Shown one piece after another: positions 3,965 through 17,818 of a DNA stretch of 20,046 bases (its first letter is position 1; the number at the start of each line of letters is the position of its first letter). Below the pieces are notes generated by a model that was given only the letters and a program-made list of their open reading frames with translations, ran no database searches and was not told the origin of the DNA. The stretch is from assembly GCA_018260755.1 (NCBI GenBank), contig JAGTWP010000021.1, positions 1-20,046 of the forward strand, read 5' to 3'. Source of the stretch: Candidatus Altarchaeum sp. (GTDB taxonomy: Archaea; Altiarchaeota; Altiarchaeia; Altiarchaeales; Altiarchaeaceae). Position numbers and translations under genes: made by a program.

Positions 3965-6103
3965 ATGAGCAAAAGCAAAATTTTTCAGGGCAAATTTTTG
4001 ACATTAGGACTGACTGCTATAATTGCTATCTCTGTGTTGTTTATAAGTATGTCAGAAGTAAGTGCGTCATTGAATATAAAAAGTATAAATTTTATCGGCT
4101 CAAATTCTGACTTAAGGATAAATATCACAATAGAAAATACGAATACGGTTAGTGTTCCATTCAATATTACGCTTAAAGATACATCTAATGATAATGAAGA
4201 TAACCAGGTTATTTATTCGGGCTCAATATCAATAGATGCAAATAGAACACAATCATATATTTTTGGAATATCTGGAAGTTATGATTATTATTTAAGTAAT
4301 CCCTCTTATTGGGAAAATTACAGATGCGGGGAACACAGCATTGAAGCAAAAATTAATTATGGTGGAAGCACAGATACCGAGTCAAACGAAATTAATTTAG
4401 ATGCGGATGCGTTTAGTTTAACATTTTCTCCCGATATAGAAACAGGCAAAGTTTCTCTAAAGGATAGAGTATATGTAACCGTAAAGGATATAGATGGAAA
4501 AGCAATAAGCAGTGCTTCGGTTAAAATTAGTGACGGGGATGTAACAAAAACTGTCGGAACAACAAATAGCGTAGGACAAGTTAGTTTCAGAATTTCCGAA
4601 TTATTTTCTTCGCCATCAACGGGAACATATACCTTAAACATTTTCAAGCACGACAAATTCAGGGACCATTATTACTGTAATTATGAAAAGGACTTTCAGG
4701 CCAAGAAAAAATTAAACATTTCAAGCATAAGCCCTGCGAATCCGAAGGTAAACGAAAGAATTACCTTAACAGTTGCTGCCGATGATTATGCTGACTACAG
4801 CGGAGTATATTTGTCAGTTGAAGATACAGGCAATCCGTCTAATTCACACTATATAACATTAAATGACCAAACATCTTATTTCACACTTGCTAATCCGGGA
4901 ACATATAAGATTCGTCTTTCAAAAAGTAGCGAGTATTGGGAGGCCGAAAGAACGATTGTTATTGAAGAAAATCCGGAATTAAACATTTCATTCGGTGACA
5001 TTGCGCTTGGCAAAGAAAATGAGTTTGTTGTTCTGGACGCAAATAATGCAAGAGTGTCAGGCGTAAAAGTTACATTAAACGGTGAAAATTTAAATACCTA
5101 CAAAACAAGCGATTATAATGGTGTGGTTAAATTTACAATTACAAATCCGGGAAGTTATGAAATAACAGCAGAAAAAATAGGATACCAAACAGAACAAAAA
5201 ACATTTACGGTCCTGAAAAAGCTTAAAATTGCCTTTGAGCCAGAAAATCCGAAAATTTACGACAAGGTCAAAATAAAACTTTTTGATGAAAGTGATTCGC
5301 CGGTTGACGGAACGATAACAATTGATAATATACCTTATTCAACACAAGCGGGCTACATAACTTATAATTTTACAAAGTTTGTGAGTTATAAAATTGTCGG
5401 AAAGTCACAAAATTTTGCCGATTTTGAAGTAAATTTAAAGCCATTAAAAATTTTATCTCTGAATATAAATAAAGCGGAAAACGAGGAATTTTCTGTCGGG
5501 GAAAATTTAGATATAACCTTAGAAGGTGAGGGATTAAGTACGACAAAAATTGAAATAAAAAATTTAGATACGAATAAAACAACAAGTGCAACCACCTCAA
5601 CAAAAAATTACACACTGCCGCTTTTAAGTCCGGGAAATTATGAAATAACTGCAACTGGATATGGGTTTGGAGATGTCCGGAAAACATTTAGCGTCAGACA
5701 TTTGACAATGGAAATCAATGCAAAATATGATAATAAAAACAACAAAATTTTAATAAGTGTTATAAGTGATGGGAAAGGTCTTGAAAATGCAACAATATCA
5801 GTTAAAACACCGAAAAATCTGTTCGGGCAATATGTAACCGATGCAGACGGAGAAGCGGTTTTTGATGCCGTATGCGGAGAAGGAAATTACACAGTTAATG
5901 TTGAAAAAATTCATTACGAAACCAGACAACAAATTGTTGAAGTAAAGAAGCAAATTTTTGATTTCGGAGTAATTTTACCTGTCGCAATCATCATAATTGT
6001 TTTGTTAGTCTTTGCACTCATATATCTGATATTAAAGAAGAAAAGAGCAAACAAAGTAAACAATAAAAAAGTCAATGAAATTCATGAAAGTAAGCTGGAA
6101 TAG
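3965..6103 (+). CDS. Membrane-anchored surface protein with repeated beta-sandwich domains
   Basis: This 712-aa protein has the layout of a cell-surface protein. The N-terminus has a signal peptide: basic MSKSKIFQGK, a hydrophobic core and a plausible cleavage after VSA near residue 35. One membrane helix lies near the C-terminus (about 666-690), followed by a basic cytoplasmic tail. Between them are Ig-like or carboxypeptidase-regulatory-like repeats. Recurring phrases such as T-DG-A-F and GxYxIxAxKxGY appear at about 165-230, 340-415, 420-490, 500-575 and 585-660. The first domain has CARDB-like features (N-terminal adhesin-type beta sandwich). Many N-x-S/T sites would allow glycosylation. 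There is no catalytic domain, so the likely role is structural or adhesive. It overlaps the next gene by 29 nt. It could be a sensor or a stalk for a secreted complex; function is unassigned. Confidence 0.8.
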   Translation: MSKSKIFQGKFLTLGLTAIIAISVLFISMSEVSASLNIKSINFIGSNSDLRINITIENTNTVSVPFNITLKDTSNDNEDNQVIYSGSISIDANRTQSYIFGISGSYDYYLSNPSYWENYRCGEHSIEAKINYGGSTDTESNEINLDADAFSLTFSPDIETGKVSLKDRVYVTVKDIDGKAISSASVKISDGDVTKTVGTTNSVGQVSFRISELFSSPSTGTYTLNIFKHDKFRDHYYCNYEKDFQAKKKLNISSISPANPKVNERITLTVAADDYADYSGVYLSVEDTGNPSNSHYITLNDQTSYFTLANPGTYKIRLSKSSEYWEAERTIVIEENPELNISFGDIALGKENEFVVLDANNARVSGVKVTLNGENLNTYKTSDYNGVVKFTITNPGSYEITAEKIGYQTEQKTFTVLKKLKIAFEPENPKIYDKVKIKLFDESDSPVDGTITIDNIPYSTQAGYITYNFTKFVSYKIVGKSQNFADFEVNLKPLKILSLNINKAENEEFSVGENLDITLEGEGLSTTKIEIKNLDTNKTTSATTSTKNYTLPLLSPGNYEITATGYGFGDVRKTFSVRHLTMEINAKYDNKNNKILISVISDGKGLENATISVKTPKNLFGQYVTDADGEAVFDAVCGEGNYTVNVEKIHYETRQQIVEVKKQIFDFGVILPVAIIIIVLLVFALIYLILKKKRANKVNNKKVNEIHESKLE

Positions 6104-8326: not shown

Positions 8327-9178
8327 TTATTCTTTCATCTGCATCTTACAGGCGTTAACCGTATTTTTCAAAAGCATTGCTATTGTCATAGGACCAGCAC
8401 CACCTGGAACAGGTGTGATAAAGGAGGCTTTATTTTTAACATTTTCAAAATCAACATCTCCAACTACTTTATTATTGCTCCTTGAGATTCCGACATCAAT
8501 AGCAATTGCTCCTTCCTTAACCATATCTTCTGTAATCAAATTTGGCTTTCCAACGGCAGAAATTAATATATCTGCTTTTAATGTATGTTCTTTTAAATTT
8601 TTTGTGAAAACATGACACACAGTTACGGTAGCATTCCTGTTCAAAAGCATTAAGGCAAGCGGTTTTCCAACAACAGCACTATGATTAATTATTACAACTT
8701 CTCTTCCTTCAATTTTTATATTGTATTTTTCAAGCATATAAATTACGCCTTTTGGCGTACATGGTGCCAATGTTTCATCATTGTTCAGTATTTTTCCCGA
8801 ATTTACGGGATTGAACCCATCAACATCCTTAAAAGGCAAGATCGCACTCATAATTTTTGCAGGATTTATGTGCCTTGGCAATGGCATCTGAACGAGAATT
8901 CCATTTATATCTTTGTTATTATTTAATTCGTAAATTTTTTCAAGAAGTTCTTTTTCAGTTATTGTTTCGGGAAATCTTTCTATTAAAGAATTTATTCCGC
9001 ATTCCTCGCATGCTTTATGTTTCAAATTTACATAAATTTCCGATGCGGGATTATTTCCAACAATAATTGTGGCAAGAGAAAGTCTTATGTTTAATGTTTT
9101 GTTTAAATTTTCAACCTCTGCTTTTACTTCTTCTTTTATTTCGGCACTTAACTTTTTTCCATCTATTATTTCAACCAT
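8327..9178 (-). CDS. folD: FolD, methylene-THF dehydrogenase / methenyl-THF cyclohydrolase
   Basis: A bifunctional cytoplasmic enzyme of one-carbon metabolism that interconverts methylene-, methenyl- and formyl-tetrahydrofolate. At 283 aa it is full length. Folate-site residues are present: Y49-x3-K53 in ASEIYVNLKHKA, the GILVQMPLP block and KDVDGFNP. The dinucleotide domain has VVGKPLALMLL and ends with TPVPGGAGPMTIAMLL. Where many NADP-dependent FolDs have GRS before VVGKP, this protein has NHS. The arginine is thought to bind the NADP 2'-phosphate, so cofactor preference could differ; I believe an NHS subgroup exists. Its ATG lies 20 nt after the stomatin-like gene, so the two may be cotranscribed, though no functional link is obvious. 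A folate-based enzyme in an archaeon suggests use of tetrahydrofolate alongside or in place of tetrahydromethanopterin. Confidence 0.95.
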   Translation of the reverse strand: MVEIIDGKKLSAEIKEEVKAEVENLNKTLNIRLSLATIIVGNNPASEIYVNLKHKACEECGINSLIERFPETITEKELLEKIYELNNNKDINGILVQMPLPRHINPAKIMSAILPFKDVDGFNPVNSGKILNNDETLAPCTPKGVIYMLEKYNIKIEGREVVIINHSAVVGKPLALMLLNRNATVTVCHVFTKNLKEHTLKADILISAVGKPNLITEDMVKEGAIAIDVGISRSNNKVVGDVDFENVKNKASFITPVPGGAGPMTIAMLLKNTVNACKMQMKE

Positions 9179-10013: not shown

Positions 10014-10026
10014 CATTTTTATAAAT
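10014..10026 (-). promoter_or_regulatory. TATA box of the stomatin-like gene
   Basis: ATTTATAAAAATG on the minus strand is a TATA-like box centred about 24 bp before the ATG at 9996. Transcription would start at or next to the start codon, giving a nearly leaderless mRNA. It would serve the stomatin-folD pair. Confidence 0.45.
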
Positions 10027-10117
10027 AATTTATTATAAATTTGTTATAAGAATATAAATATTTAAAATTTTAAAATTTAATATTCTAAATTAGATATTTA
10101 AAATAAATATTTAAAAT

Positions 10118-10196
10118 AGAGTTGTTGCAAATTAAAAATTTTAAAGGTGAAAACCAATAAAATTCAAAGGTAAAAAAGTTATTTTGCAACATGTCT
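10118..10196 (+). mobile_element. TGTTGCAAA-end miniature element, copy 1 (79 bp)
   Basis: The left end AGAGTTGTTGCAAATTA and the reverse complement of the right end, AGACATGTTGCAAAATAA, form an imperfect terminal inverted repeat sharing AGA..TGTTGCAAA. AAT lies on both sides. Removing the element with one AAT restores the surrounding 13-bp repeat exactly (ATATTTAAAATAAATATTC), so the borders and a 3-bp target duplication are well supported. It is almost identical to 15994-16082. It has no coding capacity. Confidence 0.75.
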
Positions 10197-10248
10197 AATA
10201 AATATTCAAAATCAGATATTTAAAATCAGATATTTAAAATAAATATTC

Positions 10249-10447
10249 GTAACTATTCAGCCACCCAAAAAATTACGAGTAAATTTTTTGATTTTTTTGT
10301 ATTTTTTGAAATTTTACGCTCACTTCGTTCGTGTATTTTCAAACAAGTTTGAAAATCGCAGGTATTAAAAAATATTTGAAATATTTTTTAAGATTGAAAA
10401 TTTATTTATAAATTTTCAGTAAATTTTTGTACCCTCTGAATAGTTAC
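10249..10447 (+). mobile_element. IS66-like miniature element, copy B (199 bp)
   Basis: It begins GTAACTATTCAG and ends CTGAATAGTTAC, perfect 12-bp terminal inverted repeats. Inside are the motif ACGCTCACTTCGTTCGTG, a hairpin TTTTCAAAC-AA-GTTTGAAAA, the palindrome AAAAAATATTTGAAATATTTTTT in outline, and TGAAAATTTA-TTTA-TAAATTTTCA near the right end. The same 17 bp, ATTTAAAATAAATATTC, abuts both sides (10232-10248 and 10448-10464). Since it lies in a tandem array, these flanks may come from the array rather than from a target duplication. No protein is encoded. Confidence 0.85.
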
Positions 10448-10601
10448 ATTTAAAATAAATATTCAAAATAAATATTCTAAATCAGATATTCTAAATCAGA
10501 TATTTAAAATAAATATTCAAAATAAATATTTAAAATAAATATTCTAAATCAGATATTCTAAACAAGATATTCAAAATTTAAACCATATAAATTTAGCCGG
10601 A

Positions 10602-11502: not shown

Positions 11503-11787
11503 TTAACCCTCTCCTGACTTTAAAATTTTTCCATCTGCAAAAACAGAATATTTCCACTTGCGGAATGGTGCAAAAAATAAAGGTGGCTCGCATACAATTT
11601 TAACATTGCATTTTTCTTTTTCGCCAACATCAAAATTAAAAACATAAGGTGTTTGCAGCCAATCCAATTTAAAAAATTTCTTTACGATTTTTCCGTCAAC
11701 TTTAAAGCGAATAATTCCCCCTATTTTGTCTAAGGAAAATTCAACTTCGTGTATTTCATTTGTACATAAGCTAAATTTTATTTCCAC
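11503..11787 (-). CDS. Small conserved-looking beta-rich protein of unknown function
   Basis: A 94-aa protein I do not recognise. It is predicted to be nearly all beta strand: HEVEFSLDKIGGIIRFKVDGKIVKKF, then VFNFDVGEKEKCNVKIV, a proline/aromatic turn (EPPLFFAPFRKWKY) and a last strand ending VFADGKIL. The paired 'VDGK'/'ADGK' turns suggest an internal repeat or a small beta sandwich, loosely like FAIM-type domains, but this is only an impression. There is no signal peptide or membrane helix, so it should be cytoplasmic. The start is an ATG at 11787. Base and AAATTT usage match the neighbours, so it looks like a resident gene. It lies between the UPF0280 gene, which it converges on, and a miniature element that starts 54 bp upstream of its start codon. 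Confidence 0.6.
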   Translation of the reverse strand: MEIKFSLCTNEIHEVEFSLDKIGGIIRFKVDGKIVKKFFKLDWLQTPYVFNFDVGEKEKCNVKIVCEPPLFFAPFRKWKYSVFADGKILKSGEG

Positions 11788-11841
11788 TTTAAAATATTTG
11801 TTTAAAAAAACGCAAAAGTAAATTTATGATAAATTTATTTT

Positions 11842-12085
11842 GTAACTATTCAGCCACCCAAAAAATTACGAGTAAATTTTTTGATTTTTACGCTCACTTC
11901 GTTCGTGTATTTTAAAATCTTTGAGATTTTAAAATTGTATTTTTTGAAATTTTACGCTCACTTCGTTCGTGTATTTTCAAACAAGTTTGAAAATCGCAGG
12001 TATTAAAAAATATTTGAAATATTTTTTAAGATTGAAAATTTATTTATAAATTTTCAGTAAATTTTTGTACCCTCTGAATAGTTAC
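11842..12085 (+). mobile_element. IS66-like miniature element, copy C (244 bp)
   Basis: The ends GTAACTATTCAG and CTGAATAGTTAC are identical to copies B and D. The flanking octamers TTTATTTT (11834-11841) and TTTAATTT (12086-12093) match at 7 of 8 positions, consistent with an aged 8-bp target duplication. This copy contains two ACGCTCACTTCGTTCGTG modules, the first followed by an extra hairpin AAAATCT-TTG-AGATTTT. The second is followed by the usual TTTTCAAAC/GTTTGAAAA hairpin. Together with short flanks it fills the gap between the 94-aa gene and the TraB gene and ends 20 bp from the TraB stop codon. Confidence 0.85.
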
Positions 12086-12104
12086 TTTAATTTTTTCCAA
12101 ATTT

Positions 12105-13406: not shown

Positions 13407-14339
13407 ATGCAGTGCACAAAATGTAAAAAGGAAGCCGTGATAAATTTAAGATATAACGGATTAAATTTATGCAATGCCTGTTTTGTTGAGTATTTTGAAA
13501 AAAGAGCAAGGGCAACAATAAGAAATTTTAATATGCTCAATATCGGCGACAAAATTGCCGTTGGATTATCCGGGGGAAAGGATTCATCTTCATTGCTTTA
13601 TTTTCTAAAAAATTTTTCAGAAAAAAGAAGAACCAAAATTCTGGCAATGACAATAGATGTTGGGATTAATGATGAGTATGGCAGCAGCACATTAAATAAT
13701 ACAAAAGAAGTGTGCCAAAAACTCGGAATTGAGCATCACATTTATTCCTTTAAAGACGAAATAGGAATGACAATTGATGAAATACATTTAAAAATTTGTA
13801 ATAATAAATTTGGCGGAAGCGAGGGCTTATGTACTTATTGCGGCGTGTTAAGAAGGGATATAATGAACAAAAAAGCAAAGGAATTGGGCTGCAGCAAATT
13901 AGCAATTGCCCATAATTTAGAGGATGAAGATCAGGCATTTTTGATGAACATCGTCAGAGGAGACATTGAGAGGATAATCTGGGGAAGCAGTTTAATTAAA
14001 GATGCAAAGATGATTCCGAGAATAAAACCATTTATAAAATCGCCAGAAGATGAAGTAAAGTTCTATGCAAAAATAAATTTTCCGGAATTAAATTTTGAAC
14101 ATATATGTCCATACAGAAAAGACGCATACAGGAAAACATTCAAAGATATTTTAAATTTGCTGAACGAGAAGTATCCCGGCAGTAATTTTCAGATATTTGA
14201 GAGCAATAATAAGTTAAAAAATTTATTATTAAAGGACTACAAAATAAAGGGTGTCCATTTCTGTAAGACATGCGGAAATTTATGCAGCGGGGAAATATGT
14301 AAGAGGTGCGAATTGCTGAAAAATTTGAATTTAATTTGA
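13407..14339 (+). CDS. NcsA/TtuA-type tRNA 2-thiouridine synthase
   Basis: A 310-aa PP-loop ATPase of the TtuA/NcsA/Ncs6 group, which adenylates a tRNA uridine and replaces O2 with sulfur taken from a ubiquitin-like carrier. Domains in order: an N-terminal zinc finger (C3, C6, C22, C25), the PP-loop SGGKDS at 55-60, C142-TY-C145 in GLCTYCGVLRR, C234 in EHICPYRKDAYRK, and a C-terminal zinc finger (C286, C289, C298, C301). C142, C145 and C234 correspond to the three cysteines that hold the [4Fe-4S] cluster in TtuA. Both zinc fingers and all cluster cysteines are intact, so it should be active. Target position (U34 for NcsA, U54 for TtuA) cannot be decided by eye. With Elp3 in the same region, a wobble-U34 role is attractive. 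The ATG at 13407 directly precedes the zinc finger. Confidence 0.92.
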   Translation: MQCTKCKKEAVINLRYNGLNLCNACFVEYFEKRARATIRNFNMLNIGDKIAVGLSGGKDSSSLLYFLKNFSEKRRTKILAMTIDVGINDEYGSSTLNNTKEVCQKLGIEHHIYSFKDEIGMTIDEIHLKICNNKFGGSEGLCTYCGVLRRDIMNKKAKELGCSKLAIAHNLEDEDQAFLMNIVRGDIERIIWGSSLIKDAKMIPRIKPFIKSPEDEVKFYAKINFPELNFEHICPYRKDAYRKTFKDILNLLNEKYPGSNFQIFESNNKLKNLLLKDYKIKGVHFCKTCGNLCSGEICKRCELLKNLNLI

Positions 14340-14397
14340 TATATTAAGAATGCGAATGCGCCCGGATCGGATAGCAAAGTAGTTATTTAGTTATTTT
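14340..14397. other. Short intergenic stretch with a GC-rich patch
   Basis: Between the ncsA stop and the miniature element is a 25-bp patch (14351-14375) with about two thirds G+C, containing GCGCCCGGATCGG, in DNA that is otherwise about one third G+C. It does not fold as a tRNA and I see no match to a known RNA. The rest is AT-rich and ends in the octamer GTTATTTT, the left target duplicate of the next element. Confidence 0.5.
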
Positions 14398-14642
14398 GTA
14401 ACTATTCAGCCATCCAAAAAATTAAAGGTAATTTTTTTGACTTTTTTAAATTTTTTGAAATTTTACGCTCACTTCGTTCGTGTATTTTCAAACAAGTTTG
14501 AAAATCGCAGGTATTAAAAAATATTTGAAATATTTTTTAAGATTGAAAATTTATTTATAAATTTTCAGTAAATTTTGTACTCTATATATTGTATTGATAT
14601 ATTCGTACCCTTAAAATGTATTCAACATCTCTGAATAGTTAC
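14398..14642 (+). mobile_element. IS66-like miniature element, copy D (245 bp), with 8-bp target duplication
   Basis: The ends GTAACTATTCAG and CTGAATAGTTAC are perfect inverted repeats. GTTATTTT flanks both sides (14390-14397 and 14643-14650), a clean 8-bp target duplication. The central part matches copy B, but this copy has about 47 extra bases (about 14581-14628) just before the right end. GTAA ends with 8-bp duplications are characteristic of IS66-family transposons, so I infer mobilisation by such a transposase; none is in the window. It lies between the convergent ends of ncsA and the 315-aa gene, and the right duplicate touches the latter's stop codon. Confidence 0.88.
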
Positions 14643-14649
14643 GTTATTT

Positions 14650-15597
14650 TTAAGATTTAGTAATAGTATATCCTAAGGCGGACATTATTTTAACTTCTTG
14701 TGCTTCTTCTTGTAATTTTTTGAATATGCTTTCTTTGCCGTAGTAATATTTATTCTCTTCAAGAATTCCTGCTTCTTGTATTATATTATCAAGGTGACTT
14801 TCAAATTTTGTTCGGAATTGGCAACCTAAACCGGTGTTATAGATATTACGGTGTTCCAGCATTAATTCGTCAACAGTCGTATGAATTAGTTCATTTGCTT
14901 TTAATGCCAGAGAATAATATGTGTTTGCAATTCTCAAAAAAGGGATAATACTCTTTATCTTAAGATGGTCAATAATATATTTTTTACCTTTTTTTATAGC
15001 AAAACCAAACACATAGTTAATTATCTCATCTTTTTTAGCATCTTCTAAAAGATCTTCTATTTTGATAAATGCATTTCCTCTTTCATAAGAATAAGTATCA
15101 GTCTTCTTTCTTATCAATTCCTCGGACTCGAGCAAATCAAAGTATTTCCTTTGGTTAATCGCAAATTCTATTGGTTTAGCTGCATCATCTCTGTTGATCT
15201 TTGCAAGAATTGAATATATAGGATTAAGTGCTGTTCTGATAAATGAAATCTTTGCCAGATAAGAATATGTAGCATTCAATACAATTGCCTCGGTATCAAG
15301 AGATAACTCATATAATTTAGAGTATGCTTTTGAATATATTTCCATCCTATCAATCCTGGATTTAGGAATTAATTCTTTTTCAAATGCAAATTCATAGCTT
15401 TTGATATTATCAAATTTTATATATCTCAAATACTCCTTTTCACCATCTGTAAAATCTTTAATCAATTTAGGGAAAACCACACCAAAAGATACTTTATAAT
15501 CATGATTACCAAGATCATCTATATCTCTTGCATAAACTTGCGGACCTATTCTATTCATAATAAAATAATTGACATCCTCTTTTGTCAATTTACCCAT
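14650..15597 (-). CDS. Accessory protein of unknown function with a possible winged-helix segment
   Basis: A 315-aa cytoplasmic protein I do not recognise. It has no signal peptide or membrane helix and is mostly helical. A segment at about 142-180 (PIEFAINQRKYFDLLESEEL, then IRKKTDTYSYERGNAFIKI) looks like a winged helix: two helices, an 'LIRK' turn and a beta wing. That is pattern reading, not a family match. Hydrophobic helical stretches at about 100-135 and 205-240 may dimerise. Only two AAATTT hexamers occur in 948 bp, against 12 in 933 bp of neighbouring ncsA, so it is probably foreign. The right 8-bp duplicate of a miniature element meets its stop codon. A TATA-like AAATATTTAAAAACAAAATA lies 15-34 nt upstream of its ATG. 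Its likely partner is the C39-like peptidase gene, from which it is now separated by two elements. Confidence 0.75.
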   Translation of the reverse strand: MGKLTKEDVNYFIMNRIGPQVYARDIDDLGNHDYKVSFGVVFPKLIKDFTDGEKEYLRYIKFDNIKSYEFAFEKELIPKSRIDRMEIYSKAYSKLYELSLDTEAIVLNATYSYLAKISFIRTALNPIYSILAKINRDDAAKPIEFAINQRKYFDLLESEELIRKKTDTYSYERGNAFIKIEDLLEDAKKDEIINYVFGFAIKKGKKYIIDHLKIKSIIPFLRIANTYYSLALKANELIHTTVDELMLEHRNIYNTGLGCQFRTKFESHLDNIIQEAGILEENKYYYGKESIFKKLQEEAQEVKIMSALGYTITKS

Positions 15598-15611
15598 TTT
15601 TATATTGTTAA

Positions 15612-15631
15612 TATTTTGTTTTTAAATATTT
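15612..15631. repeat. 20-bp direct repeat, copy 1
   Basis: TATTTTGTTTTTAAATATTT occurs here, just upstream of the 315-aa gene, and again at 16089-16108, directly against the stop codon of the C39-like peptidase gene. The two copies bracket both miniature elements of the gap. On the minus strand it contains a TATA-like ATATTTAAAA, so this copy may be the present promoter of the 315-aa gene. Confidence 0.8.
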
Positions 15632-15642
15632 ACTTAAACTAT

Positions 15643-15851
15643 AGCGTTGTTGCGAAATAGTTTATATATGCTATTTTATATCATATCAAAAATGTTTGAA
15701 ACATTTTTGAGTATTCAAAAAACCTGAGAGGTTTTTACAACAACAATAGACAAACCATCTGAAAATTTATTTTTTTATCACCTCGCTTCGCTCGGATATT
15801 TTAAATAAATTTAAAATAACAATAGATTGAAAATTATTTCGCAACATGTCT
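15643..15851 (+). mobile_element. TGTTGCGAAA-end miniature element, long form (209 bp)
   Basis: The left end TAGCGTTGTTGCGAAATAGTT and the reverse complement of the right end, TAGACATGTTGCGAAATAATT, form an imperfect inverted repeat of about 21 bp. The ends resemble those of the elements at 10118-10196 and 15994-16082, but the interior differs. It has the palindrome AAAAATGTTT-G-AAACATTTTT, a hairpin AAAAACCT-GAG-AGGTTTTT and the motif CCTCGCTTCGCTCGGATATT (15781-15800). TA occurs at both borders, but the exact duplication is unclear. There is no coding capacity. Confidence 0.7.
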
Positions 15852-15852
15852 A

Positions 15853-15993
15853 TTATAAATAAGTATTAATATATTAATATATTAATAAATTAAATTTCGT
15901 TAAATATAATTGCATTCGATAAATTTTGGTGCTGATAAAAGCGAAAAATTTACCGAATTTATAAAATTGATAATTTCAATTTTAATAAATAAT
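15853..15993. other. AT-rich spacer between two elements, nothing recognised
   Basis: This piece separates the two elements in the gap between the peptidase and the 315-aa gene. It begins with a TATTAA-type simple repeat (15864-15888) and otherwise shows no open frame, promoter or RNA structure that I can defend. Confidence 0.5.
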
Positions 15994-16082
15994 AGAGTTG
16001 TTGCAAATTAAAAATTTTAAAGGTGAAAACTGATAAAATTTAAAGGAGTTCAAAGGTGAAAAAGTTATTTTGCAACCTGTCT
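15994..16082 (+). mobile_element. TGTTGCAAA-end miniature element, copy 2 (89 bp)
   Basis: This is almost identical to the 79-bp element at 10118-10196: the same AGAGTTGTTGCAAATTA left end, the same AAAGGTGAAAAC interior, and a right end differing by one base (TTGCAACCTGTCT). It carries 10 extra bases near the middle. Close identity at two distant sites implies recent movement. The flanking trinucleotides (AAT and TAT) do not match perfectly. Confidence 0.75.
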
Positions 16083-16088
16083 TATTAG

Positions 16089-16108
16089 TATTTTGTTTTT
16101 AAATATTT
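16089..16108. repeat. 20-bp direct repeat, copy 2
   Basis: This is an exact copy of 15612-15631. It abuts the stop codon of the C39-like peptidase gene. If the DNA between the two copies is collapsed, that stop codon falls 34 nt before the ATG of the 315-aa gene, as in an operon. Confidence 0.8.
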
Positions 16109-16759
16109 TTATTGAAATACTGTTAATTTTTTCTGTTTTAATTTCTCATCAAGTAAATAAATACTTGCACTTTTTGTTTTGTCCCAACAACTTAAAAATG
16201 TTTTATAATCTATTTTACGAACATTATCAAATGAATATTTCTTTTTTTCGTAAGGATCCAAAGGATCCCATATTCCAAAAATTTGTTTATCTTCATCGTA
16301 GCCAATAACAACAACAGAGTGATAAACAAACACATCTGATTTTTCGATTATTTTAATTCCACGATATTTACAATATTCCTCGAGATCTAAGAAAACAATT
16401 ACATAAGTATTTGATTCAATTAAACGCAATAAATCATCTTTGGAGAGATCTATTTTATAGTTGACAAGTATTTCATAATCTTTAAGGAGTTTCGCCAGGC
16501 AATCTTGGATTTCACTTACACCTTTAGGTATAAACTTTGGGTATCGCTGGCGATATTCATGAGGAAGTGGATCTCCCATCTCTTTTGTAATTTTATCCAA
16601 ACTTATTTTCCTCCTTAAATTAAACTGGTTATCCAAAATAGTTTTTATGCATGTCGGGAGGCACATATGATCTTGCTGTTGGTGTTGTGGATTCTTTAGT
16701 CCTATGAAATGTTGTTTTTTAATGCCCATTGTTTTATCTTTAGATTCATAATTAAACAT
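16109..16759 (-). CDS. C39-like papain-fold cysteine peptidase
   Basis: A 216-aa protein with the hallmarks of a C39-type cysteine peptidase. Gln27 (oxyanion hole) lies six residues before the probable catalytic Cys33 in QQQDHMCLPTC. His147 in VYHSVVVIGYDEDK and Asp165 in FGIWDPLDP complete the triad in the usual order and spacing, and GYD and WDP are characteristic. Classic C39 peptidases are fused to ABC transporters and cut double-glycine leaders; this one is stand-alone, has no transporter nearby and no signal peptide, so it should act in the cytoplasm. The substrate is unknown, and the adjacent 315-aa protein is a candidate. Only one AAATTT hexamer occurs in 651 bp, so the gene looks acquired. 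The ATG at 16759 lies about 27 bp after a good TATA box, implying a leaderless mRNA; Met11 (16729) is an alternative start. Confidence 0.75.
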   Translation of the reverse strand: MFNYESKDKTMGIKKQHFIGLKNPQHQQQDHMCLPTCIKTILDNQFNLRRKISLDKITKEMGDPLPHEYRQRYPKFIPKGVSEIQDCLAKLLKDYEILVNYKIDLSKDDLLRLIESNTYVIVFLDLEEYCKYRGIKIIEKSDVFVYHSVVVIGYDEDKQIFGIWDPLDPYEKKKYSFDNVRKIDYKTFLSCWDKTKSASIYLLDEKLKQKKLTVFQ

Positions 16760-16933
16760 TATTTCGGCGAAAGAATGATAACTTTATATGGGAAGCTTTA
16801 TCGAAACACAAGTTTGGACATTCCTCCAAGTTATTGTTATATCCGAATCCGAATTCCAACATGTTTTTTGTATCACTTGATATCTCTACGCATTTTGGCC
16901 AGCATTTGAGAATTTAAGAGAGTAAATTTATTT
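16760..16933. other. Intergenic region upstream of the peptidase gene, no gene supported
   Basis: Apart from the TATA box at 16782-16790, this gap has only short open frames. The longest minus-strand frame (about 40 codons, reading toward the peptidase start) ends without a plausible product, and a plus-strand frame of 66 codons crosses into the peptidase gene with no promoter. I regard them as chance. Confidence 0.5.
16782..16790 (-). promoter_or_regulatory. TATA box of the C39-like peptidase gene
   Basis: CATATAAAG on the minus strand is centred 27 bp before the ATG at 16759, placing transcription start at the start codon. This is the arrangement of leaderless archaeal genes. It would originally have driven the peptidase and the 315-aa gene together. 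Confidence 0.5.
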
Positions 16934-17818
16934 CTATTGTGTTGTTATTATCGCCCCTTCCTTTGTTATTATTGCAGTATGCTCAAACTGACTTATCATC
17001 CCGTTGCCTTTTTCCCTGAACATCCCATATCTTCTTATTATATTTCTATTCACCATATCCTGAAGTATTAAATTTAATTTTATTTCCGGAATTGCCTTAA
17101 ACCATCTTTTTGCGAATGGCATACCTTTTCTTATTTCAAGCTCTTTTAATAAATTTCTTTCTTCTGCCATCCTTACTGGCTTGATTTGAATTAAACTATA
17201 AATTTCATACTTGTTTGTTTCTATCACACTCCCGGCTCCGTCAGTAACGAACGGTTCTATCGCTATAACCATATCTTCGCTTAATGTCTGGTTTGAATTT
17301 ATATCTACATTTGGAATTGAAAGACCTGCATGCAACTGGTATTGGTCAATCTGATGCCCGGTTAAATTTTCAATCGGTTTGTATCCGTAACTCTTTATGG
17401 TTTTTTCTACGATTTTTCCTATTTCAGAAATTTTTACTCCTGCTTTTAAAGTTTTTAATGCGTTTTCTAATGCCGCCTTATTTGCATCTAACATTTTTCC
17501 GTATTTTCCTGTTAAATCAATCGTATAAGCGGTATCTGCGATATATCCGTCAACAGCAGTTCCTAAGTCAATTTTAACAACACCTTCTCCGATAACCGAC
17601 TCATCATTCCATGACGGTGTTGAATGTGCGGCAATGTTATTTACGGAAATATTTACAGGAAAAGCAATTTCCGCATTTTTTTCTTTTATCATATTTTCAA
17701 TGGCTTCTGCAATATCCAGGGTCTTTGCATCCGGTTTTATTAAATTTTTACTCCTGTCCACAACCTCTTTTGCGATTTTTCCCGCTTCAATGTATTTGTC
17801 TAATATTTGCTGTTCCAT
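16934..17818 (-). CDS. map: Type II methionine aminopeptidase
   Basis: Removes the N-terminal methionine from new proteins in the cytoplasm. The 294-aa protein has every expected metal ligand: D84 (KIDLG), D95 (IADTAY), H155 (LTGHQID), E188 (AIEPF) and E279 (QFEHT), plus H65 (AAHSTP) for substrate contact. The positions agree closely with Pyrococcus furiosus MetAP (D82, D93, H153, E187, E280). The type II insert lies between E188 and E279, around residues 205-270. There is no N-terminal extension, as usual in archaea. The ATG at 17818 is 38 bp downstream of a TATA-like box shared with the divergent antiporter gene. Confidence 0.96.
   Translation of the reverse strand: MEQQILDKYIEAGKIAKEVVDRSKNLIKPDAKTLDIAEAIENMIKEKNAEIAFPVNISVNNIAAHSTPSWNDESVIGEGVVKIDLGTAVDGYIADTAYTIDLTGKYGKMLDANKAALENALKTLKAGVKISEIGKIVEKTIKSYGYKPIENLTGHQIDQYQLHAGLSIPNVDINSNQTLSEDMVIAIEPFVTDGAGSVIETNKYEIYSLIQIKPVRMAEERNLLKELEIRKGMPFAKRWFKAIPEIKLNLILQDMVNRNIIRRYGMFREKGNGMISQFEHTAIITKEGAIITTQ

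Follow-up and report, generated by a model that had tools for sequence, protein, structure and literature searches.

Why would an altiarchaeal genome carry a gene for a stand-alone C39-like peptidase, and does that gene function together with its neighbour, which encodes a protein of 315 amino acids (aa)? Both genes lie in a 20,046-nucleotide stretch of DNA from Candidatus Altarchaeum sp. (the window); it spans an entire contig, and the genome measures 1.32 Mb. Here we describe the two proteins, the history of the locus and the recurrence of the pair in other archaea, and we weigh what the pair may do. Coordinates are collected in Table 1.

Table 1. Features of the gene pair and its surroundings, in window coordinates
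Feature	Position	Strand	Remarks
C39-like (papain-fold) cysteine peptidase gene, first of the pair	16109..16759	-	216 aa from 16759
Predicted catalytic Cys33 codon	16661..16663	-	context QQQDHMCLPTC; from C39 alignment
Predicted catalytic His147 codon	16319..16321	-	YHSVVVI
Predicted catalytic Asp165 codon	16265..16267	-	WDP
C39 C-terminal tail motif	16115..16126	-	LTVF, an instance of [LIVM]xx[FY]
Partner gene, second of the pair	14650..15597	-	315 aa
First possible winged helix of partner, ~residues 120-185	15043..15240	-	sub-threshold Pfam matches
Second possible winged helix of partner, ~residues 215-300	14698..14955	-	family consensus against PF24406, sub-threshold, E = 7e-4
Repeat-element insert between the genes	15605..16108	.	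three abutting repeats, each with many genome copies
Repeat-element copy beside the 3' end of the pair	14391..14580	.	other copies at 10246-10432 and 11935-12090
Stretch absent from same-genus genome G003	14335..16939	.	G003 MetAP and TtuA-like genes convergent, ~40 bp apart

A C39-like protein without an exporter

The original prediction, a stand-alone C39-like peptidase with an intact Cys-His-Asp set and no exporter, agrees with profile and alignment evidence. The window peptidase matches Pfam Peptidase_C39_2 with 34.2 bits against a cut-off of 24 (E = 4.5e-8), and its Cys33, His147 and Asp165 occur in order and align with the same residues in other active-type relatives. By this score above the curated cut-off, together with the catalytic residues, the protein is a member of the C39-like (papain-fold) family. 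It is most likely a cytoplasmic papain-fold cysteine hydrolase, for which we infer peptidase activity. The first 10 residues of the reading frame are uncertain because the close relative described below starts at the equivalent of window position 16729, where an alternative ATG gives a protein of 206 aa.

The profile fold and the order of Cys, His and Asp are shared with the Peptidase C39-like family PF13529 (for example PDB 3erv, a putative C39-like peptidase); unlike that family, the window-type protein is predicted to be cytoplasmic, lacks a signal peptide, and has a fixed partner and a conserved C-terminal tail. The fold is also shared with the C39 domain of bacteriocin exporters and the C39-like domain of HlyB, but an ABC transporter and a double-glycine precursor are absent from the window's open reading frames (ORFs) and neither is conserved in homologous loci. 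A role in bacteriocin export was rejected on the lack of both transporter and peptide. The homologous loci show no third gene that goes with the pair. Pfam significance is missed by 17 of the 21 C39 relatives of the pair family. AlphaFold2 models, computed from two near-identical sequences per protein, had a pLDDT of 45 for the peptidase and 32 for the partner and were left unused.

The partner founds a family of its own

Searched alone or as a family, the 315-aa partner stayed below threshold throughout Pfam, NCBIfam, PADLOC, PHROGs and PDB. The protein thus kept the status of an unknown, as predicted, when checked against known unrelated families, and it founds a family without a match in Pfam, NCBIfam, PADLOC or PDB. 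Its layout comprises an N-terminal domain of ~100 aa and two possible winged-helix segments. The predicted winged helix fared less evenly: the best Pfam matches of single members are indeed winged-helix models (E = 0.02-0.1; for instance TFA2_Winged_2, E = 0.024, and HTH_45, E = 0.027), but all lie below the cut-off, and no helix-turn-helix family scores above it. The PF24406 match makes a winged helix possible in the second segment as well. Overall, these matches suggest winged helices in the partner.

Searches of plasmids, phages and viral contigs for relatives yielded nothing apart from one viral-contig stretch. That stretch, for which no locus was returned, encodes a relative of the partner; it is possibly the window's own record, and a related record may sit in IMG/VR.

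The pair was acquired as a unit and later split by repeats

In the species-level genome collection the sole close relative is found in Candidatus Altiarchaeales archaeon WOR_SM1_SCG (MCBE01000242.1; genome G026, locus L015), which belongs to another altiarchaeal family; with a phylum set of 29 genomes, this places the host among the altiarchaea. Both genes occur there in the same order, 26 bp apart, and their proteins are 81% and 88% identical to those of the window. The genes that flank the pair in the window are far more diverged from their WOR_SM1_SCG versions (MetAP 56% and TtuA-like 45% identical), and the neighbours of the pair differ there. Weaker matches of the first survey (L003-L006 and L009-L014) were treated as chance.

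Both genes are absent from all three same-genus genomes. Only G003 tests the site itself, because the flanking genes are not neighbours in G001 and G002; in G003 the site is empty. The near-identical adjacent pair in a distant altiarchaeal genome, the diverged flanks and the empty site together argue that the pair was gained as a unit, which bears out the proposal of an acquired two-gene island. The foreign base signature that had been cited for it proved too weak to serve as evidence of acquisition, since both genes have 29.3% GC and a GC3 of 0.23, close to those of their neighbours (30-36% and 0.24-0.34). No tRNA was found near the pair.

Flanking mobile elements had also been predicted; mobile DNA is present, but it consists of repeat elements, of which ~450 bp separate the two genes. 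A 27-bp direct repeat borders this insert on either side (15605-15631 and 16082-16108, 93%). Given the 26-bp gap in WOR_SM1_SCG, these ~450 bp indicate that the operon was split after transfer. AT-rich repeat copies, 89-99% identical, occupy window positions 10018-10577, 11822-12094, 14391-14580 and 1-63 (intergenic DNA and the contig end). They are probably MITE-like and probably account for the break in the contig. Elsewhere in the window, positions 11503-11787 (-) encode a protein of 94 aa, whose match to FAIM1, an animal protein, is below threshold (E = 0.0023).

Locus L015 has copies of gene ends of its own. The 3' end of a methylase-like gene (846-965) is copied twice beside the pair (97% and 82%) and that of guaA (5400-5563) once (96%), with partial copies flanking the pair at 2169-2288, 4776-4939 and 4953-5007. 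These copies may record how cargo genes entered between convergent genes. Near the pair, L015 989-1855 (-) encodes a 288-aa protein with a GNAT acetyltransferase domain and a phosphoribosyltransferase-like N-terminal part.

A pair that is patchy, absent from three same-genus genomes and interrupted by repeat elements might be a passenger, carried by those elements with no selected function in this host. We consider this very improbable: both genes are open, and relative to WOR_SM1_SCG each has a dN/dS of 0.15-0.16, a value that averages over the whole time since divergence. In addition, many lineages have retained the pair, and in one clade it is fixed.

The two genes recur side by side in distant archaea

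A profile of the pair, run against 394 archaeal genomes, retrieved two distant homologues of the partner (21-22% identity), in G286 and G245, both with a C39-like gene directly upstream. A four-member profile then matched in 26 of 400 genomes around G245, and a 24-member profile gave further matches around G286. Altogether the profile searches found 40 genes of the 315-aa family in several archaeal lineages; these are several families that do not belong to the window's class.

With one locus counted per gene, and with L114 (a kinase-like false match) and L109 (at a contig edge) set aside, 39 loci are testable. A C39-like gene lies directly upstream of the partner in 34 of them (in one, L113, the call was made by eye on the Cys-His-Asp pattern), and the spacing is mostly 0-20 bp or the genes overlap. 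The proposed pairing thus withstands the neighbourhood survey of homologues and is real. At the G546 locus only both ends of the C39 gene are left. The four loci without an upstream C39 gene are G682, where a DHH-family gene precedes the partner, G784:C1, G570 and G534. The partners of G570 and G534 are 216 aa long and also lack the N-terminal domain; the joint absence hints that the domain is there for the C39 protein.

To what extent are the upstream proteins one family? Leave-one-out profiles made from relatives of less than 50% identity recovered 20 of 21 at E = 3e-7 or better (L083 fails), a slightly generous figure in that the alignment columns included the tested row. The distances within the two protein families correlate (r = 0.94, 28 pairs, 0 of 2000 permutations), partly through shared genome history; among distant pairs alone r is 0.64. 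The pair is transferred between genomes as one unit.

The same survey bears on whether the papain fold might instead be a transferase, amidase or peptide processor acting on a small substrate that the partner presents, in the manner of RiPP or BtrH-type chemistry and outside any conflict system. The C39 protein weakly resembles BtrH_N and papain folds of the guanylyl-cyclase type, and some RiPP recognition elements are winged helices. However, in the ~20 loci read, no conserved small peptide gene, modifying enzyme or transporter lies beside the pair, and the existence of a clade with disarmed enzymes (below) also speaks against such chemistry, which we regard as improbable.

One clade has lost the catalytic residues and kept the pair

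All 15 active-type C39 proteins in the alignment keep Cys-His-Asp, with Asn replacing Asp in one. Six further sampled proteins lack the Cys: four of these lack the other two residues as well, one has His-Asn left and one Asn. In the partner tree the disarmed pairs group on a single branch (support 99/98), and they sit mostly at a conserved locus. An MFS transporter gene adjoins the disarmed pair in 9 of 12 loci; in the others none lies within the 1.5-kb flank. With a dN/dS of 0.11-0.20, the disarmed clade is under purifying selection. Because the pair was kept after its catalytic residues were lost, proteolysis cannot be the whole story in this lineage. HlyB sets a precedent: its C39-like domain is catalytically dead but has been retained for binding.

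Active-type pairs are patchy in distribution, and both kinds co-exist in G245 and G399. By Pfam, the genes within a few genes of active-type pairs include HepT and MNT (G510), PIN (G397 and G562) and an OLD-like TOPRIM (G399). Other loci have SLFN AlbA_2 with an archaeal ATPase (G534), AAA_14/DUF4143 ATPases (G397 and G690), a DNA methylase (G286), or TnpB with a DDE transposase (G245). All of these are raw occurrences.

Several active-type pairs show signs of decay. In G286 (L058) the C39 gene is disrupted by a short repeat-like insert with inverted-repeat ends (~8950-9075), in G397 and G690 it has frame breaks, and in G546 it has an internal deletion; the partner is intact in each. Two of these disruptions could be assembly errors. 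If the enzyme were the costly half, it should decay first, as it does here, although the loci were found via the partner; this way of searching selects for intact partners and may miss C39 relatives that stand alone.

These observations can be set against a proteolytic transcription switch, in which the C39 protein would cleave, or be held on, a DNA-binding repressor partner and, on a signal, switch on target genes as ImmA/ImmR does. The obligate pairing, the sub-threshold winged-helix matches and the acquired, mobile character of the pair are all in keeping with such a switch, and ImmA/ImmR is likewise a mobile two-gene unit of a protease and a DNA-binding protein, which the partner here may be. 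However, no divergent target gene travels along, and the pair moves alone among unrelated neighbours. The disarmed clade retains the pair without catalysis, and the MFS gene is convergent with the disarmed pair at L086, a locus read in detail, and so does not share a promoter with it. The pair contains neither a metallopeptidase such as ImmA nor an XRE-type repressor such as ImmR. We consider a switch of this kind somewhat less likely than the model favoured below.

A conserved C-terminal tail may dock on the partner

Most C39 proteins of the pair end in a conserved [LI]xx[FY]. The slightly broader [LIVM]xx[FY] occurs in the last 18 residues of 23 of 27 C39 proteins, compared with 48 of 250 long ORFs from the same loci; the 27 are not independent of one another, and elsewhere in the chain they are often less than 20% identical. 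Disarmed proteins have the motif too. In the simplest reading, the tail is likely a docking peptide.

A tentative model and its relation to known systems

We tentatively favour a mobile two-protein module, similar in outline to toxin-antitoxin systems, in which a hazardous or conditional C39 enzyme is restrained or directed by its partner. In this model the enzyme, a cytoplasmic papain-fold cysteine hydrolase, would be the hazardous half; its dedicated partner would bind it, with the enzyme's C-terminal tail docking on the partner, would restrain or direct it, and would probably touch DNA via winged helices. The active enzyme would travel in accessory regions as a toxin-antitoxin or defence unit does, and one archaeal clade would have disarmed it and kept the complex for a non-catalytic role. 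A physical complex is argued for by the obligate adjacency, the translational overlap, the co-divergence and the tail motif. That the enzyme may be hazardous or conditional, and the partner restraining or directing, is suggested by mobility, surroundings, enzyme-first decay and the disarming in one clade. We infer the complex, the peptidase activity, the direction of restraint, DNA binding and a role in toxicity or defence from these patterns.

Like the archaeal toxin-antitoxin systems HepT-MNT and VapBC, which sometimes lie side by side with it, the pair consists of two overlapping or near-adjacent genes, is patchy and is exchanged between genomes; in contrast to them, its proteins are 2-3 times larger and have no known toxin fold. 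The pair matches no PADLOC model of a known anti-phage defence system; one member gives a partial match to a cyclase (E = 0.0022). C39-family peptidases occur in uncharacterised archaeal 'dark matter' islands (PMC6393860, PMC4158269), but there they are tied to double-glycine precursors or pseudomurein-binding domains and not to this partner. The pair is an undescribed recurrent two-gene unit of distant archaea, in that the literature searched contains no description of it or of the partner family, an absence that is not proof.

Conceivably, though at somewhat less than even odds, the pair is the first of a class of archaeal modules for conflict or regulation: a C39-fold enzyme with a dedicated DNA-binding partner docked by a C-terminal tail, which transfer carried into several archaeal phyla and which one clade disarmed and turned into a regulator that works without catalysis. 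In any case, what were two hypothetical genes now make up a defined system that recurs in archaea. It brings a new protein family, and both its enzyme and its docking motif can be tested. If the enzyme is toxic or proteolytic, it would place a C39 peptidase inside the cell with a dedicated partner, and not in peptide export. The disarmed clade provides a natural control, the same pair maintained without its active site.
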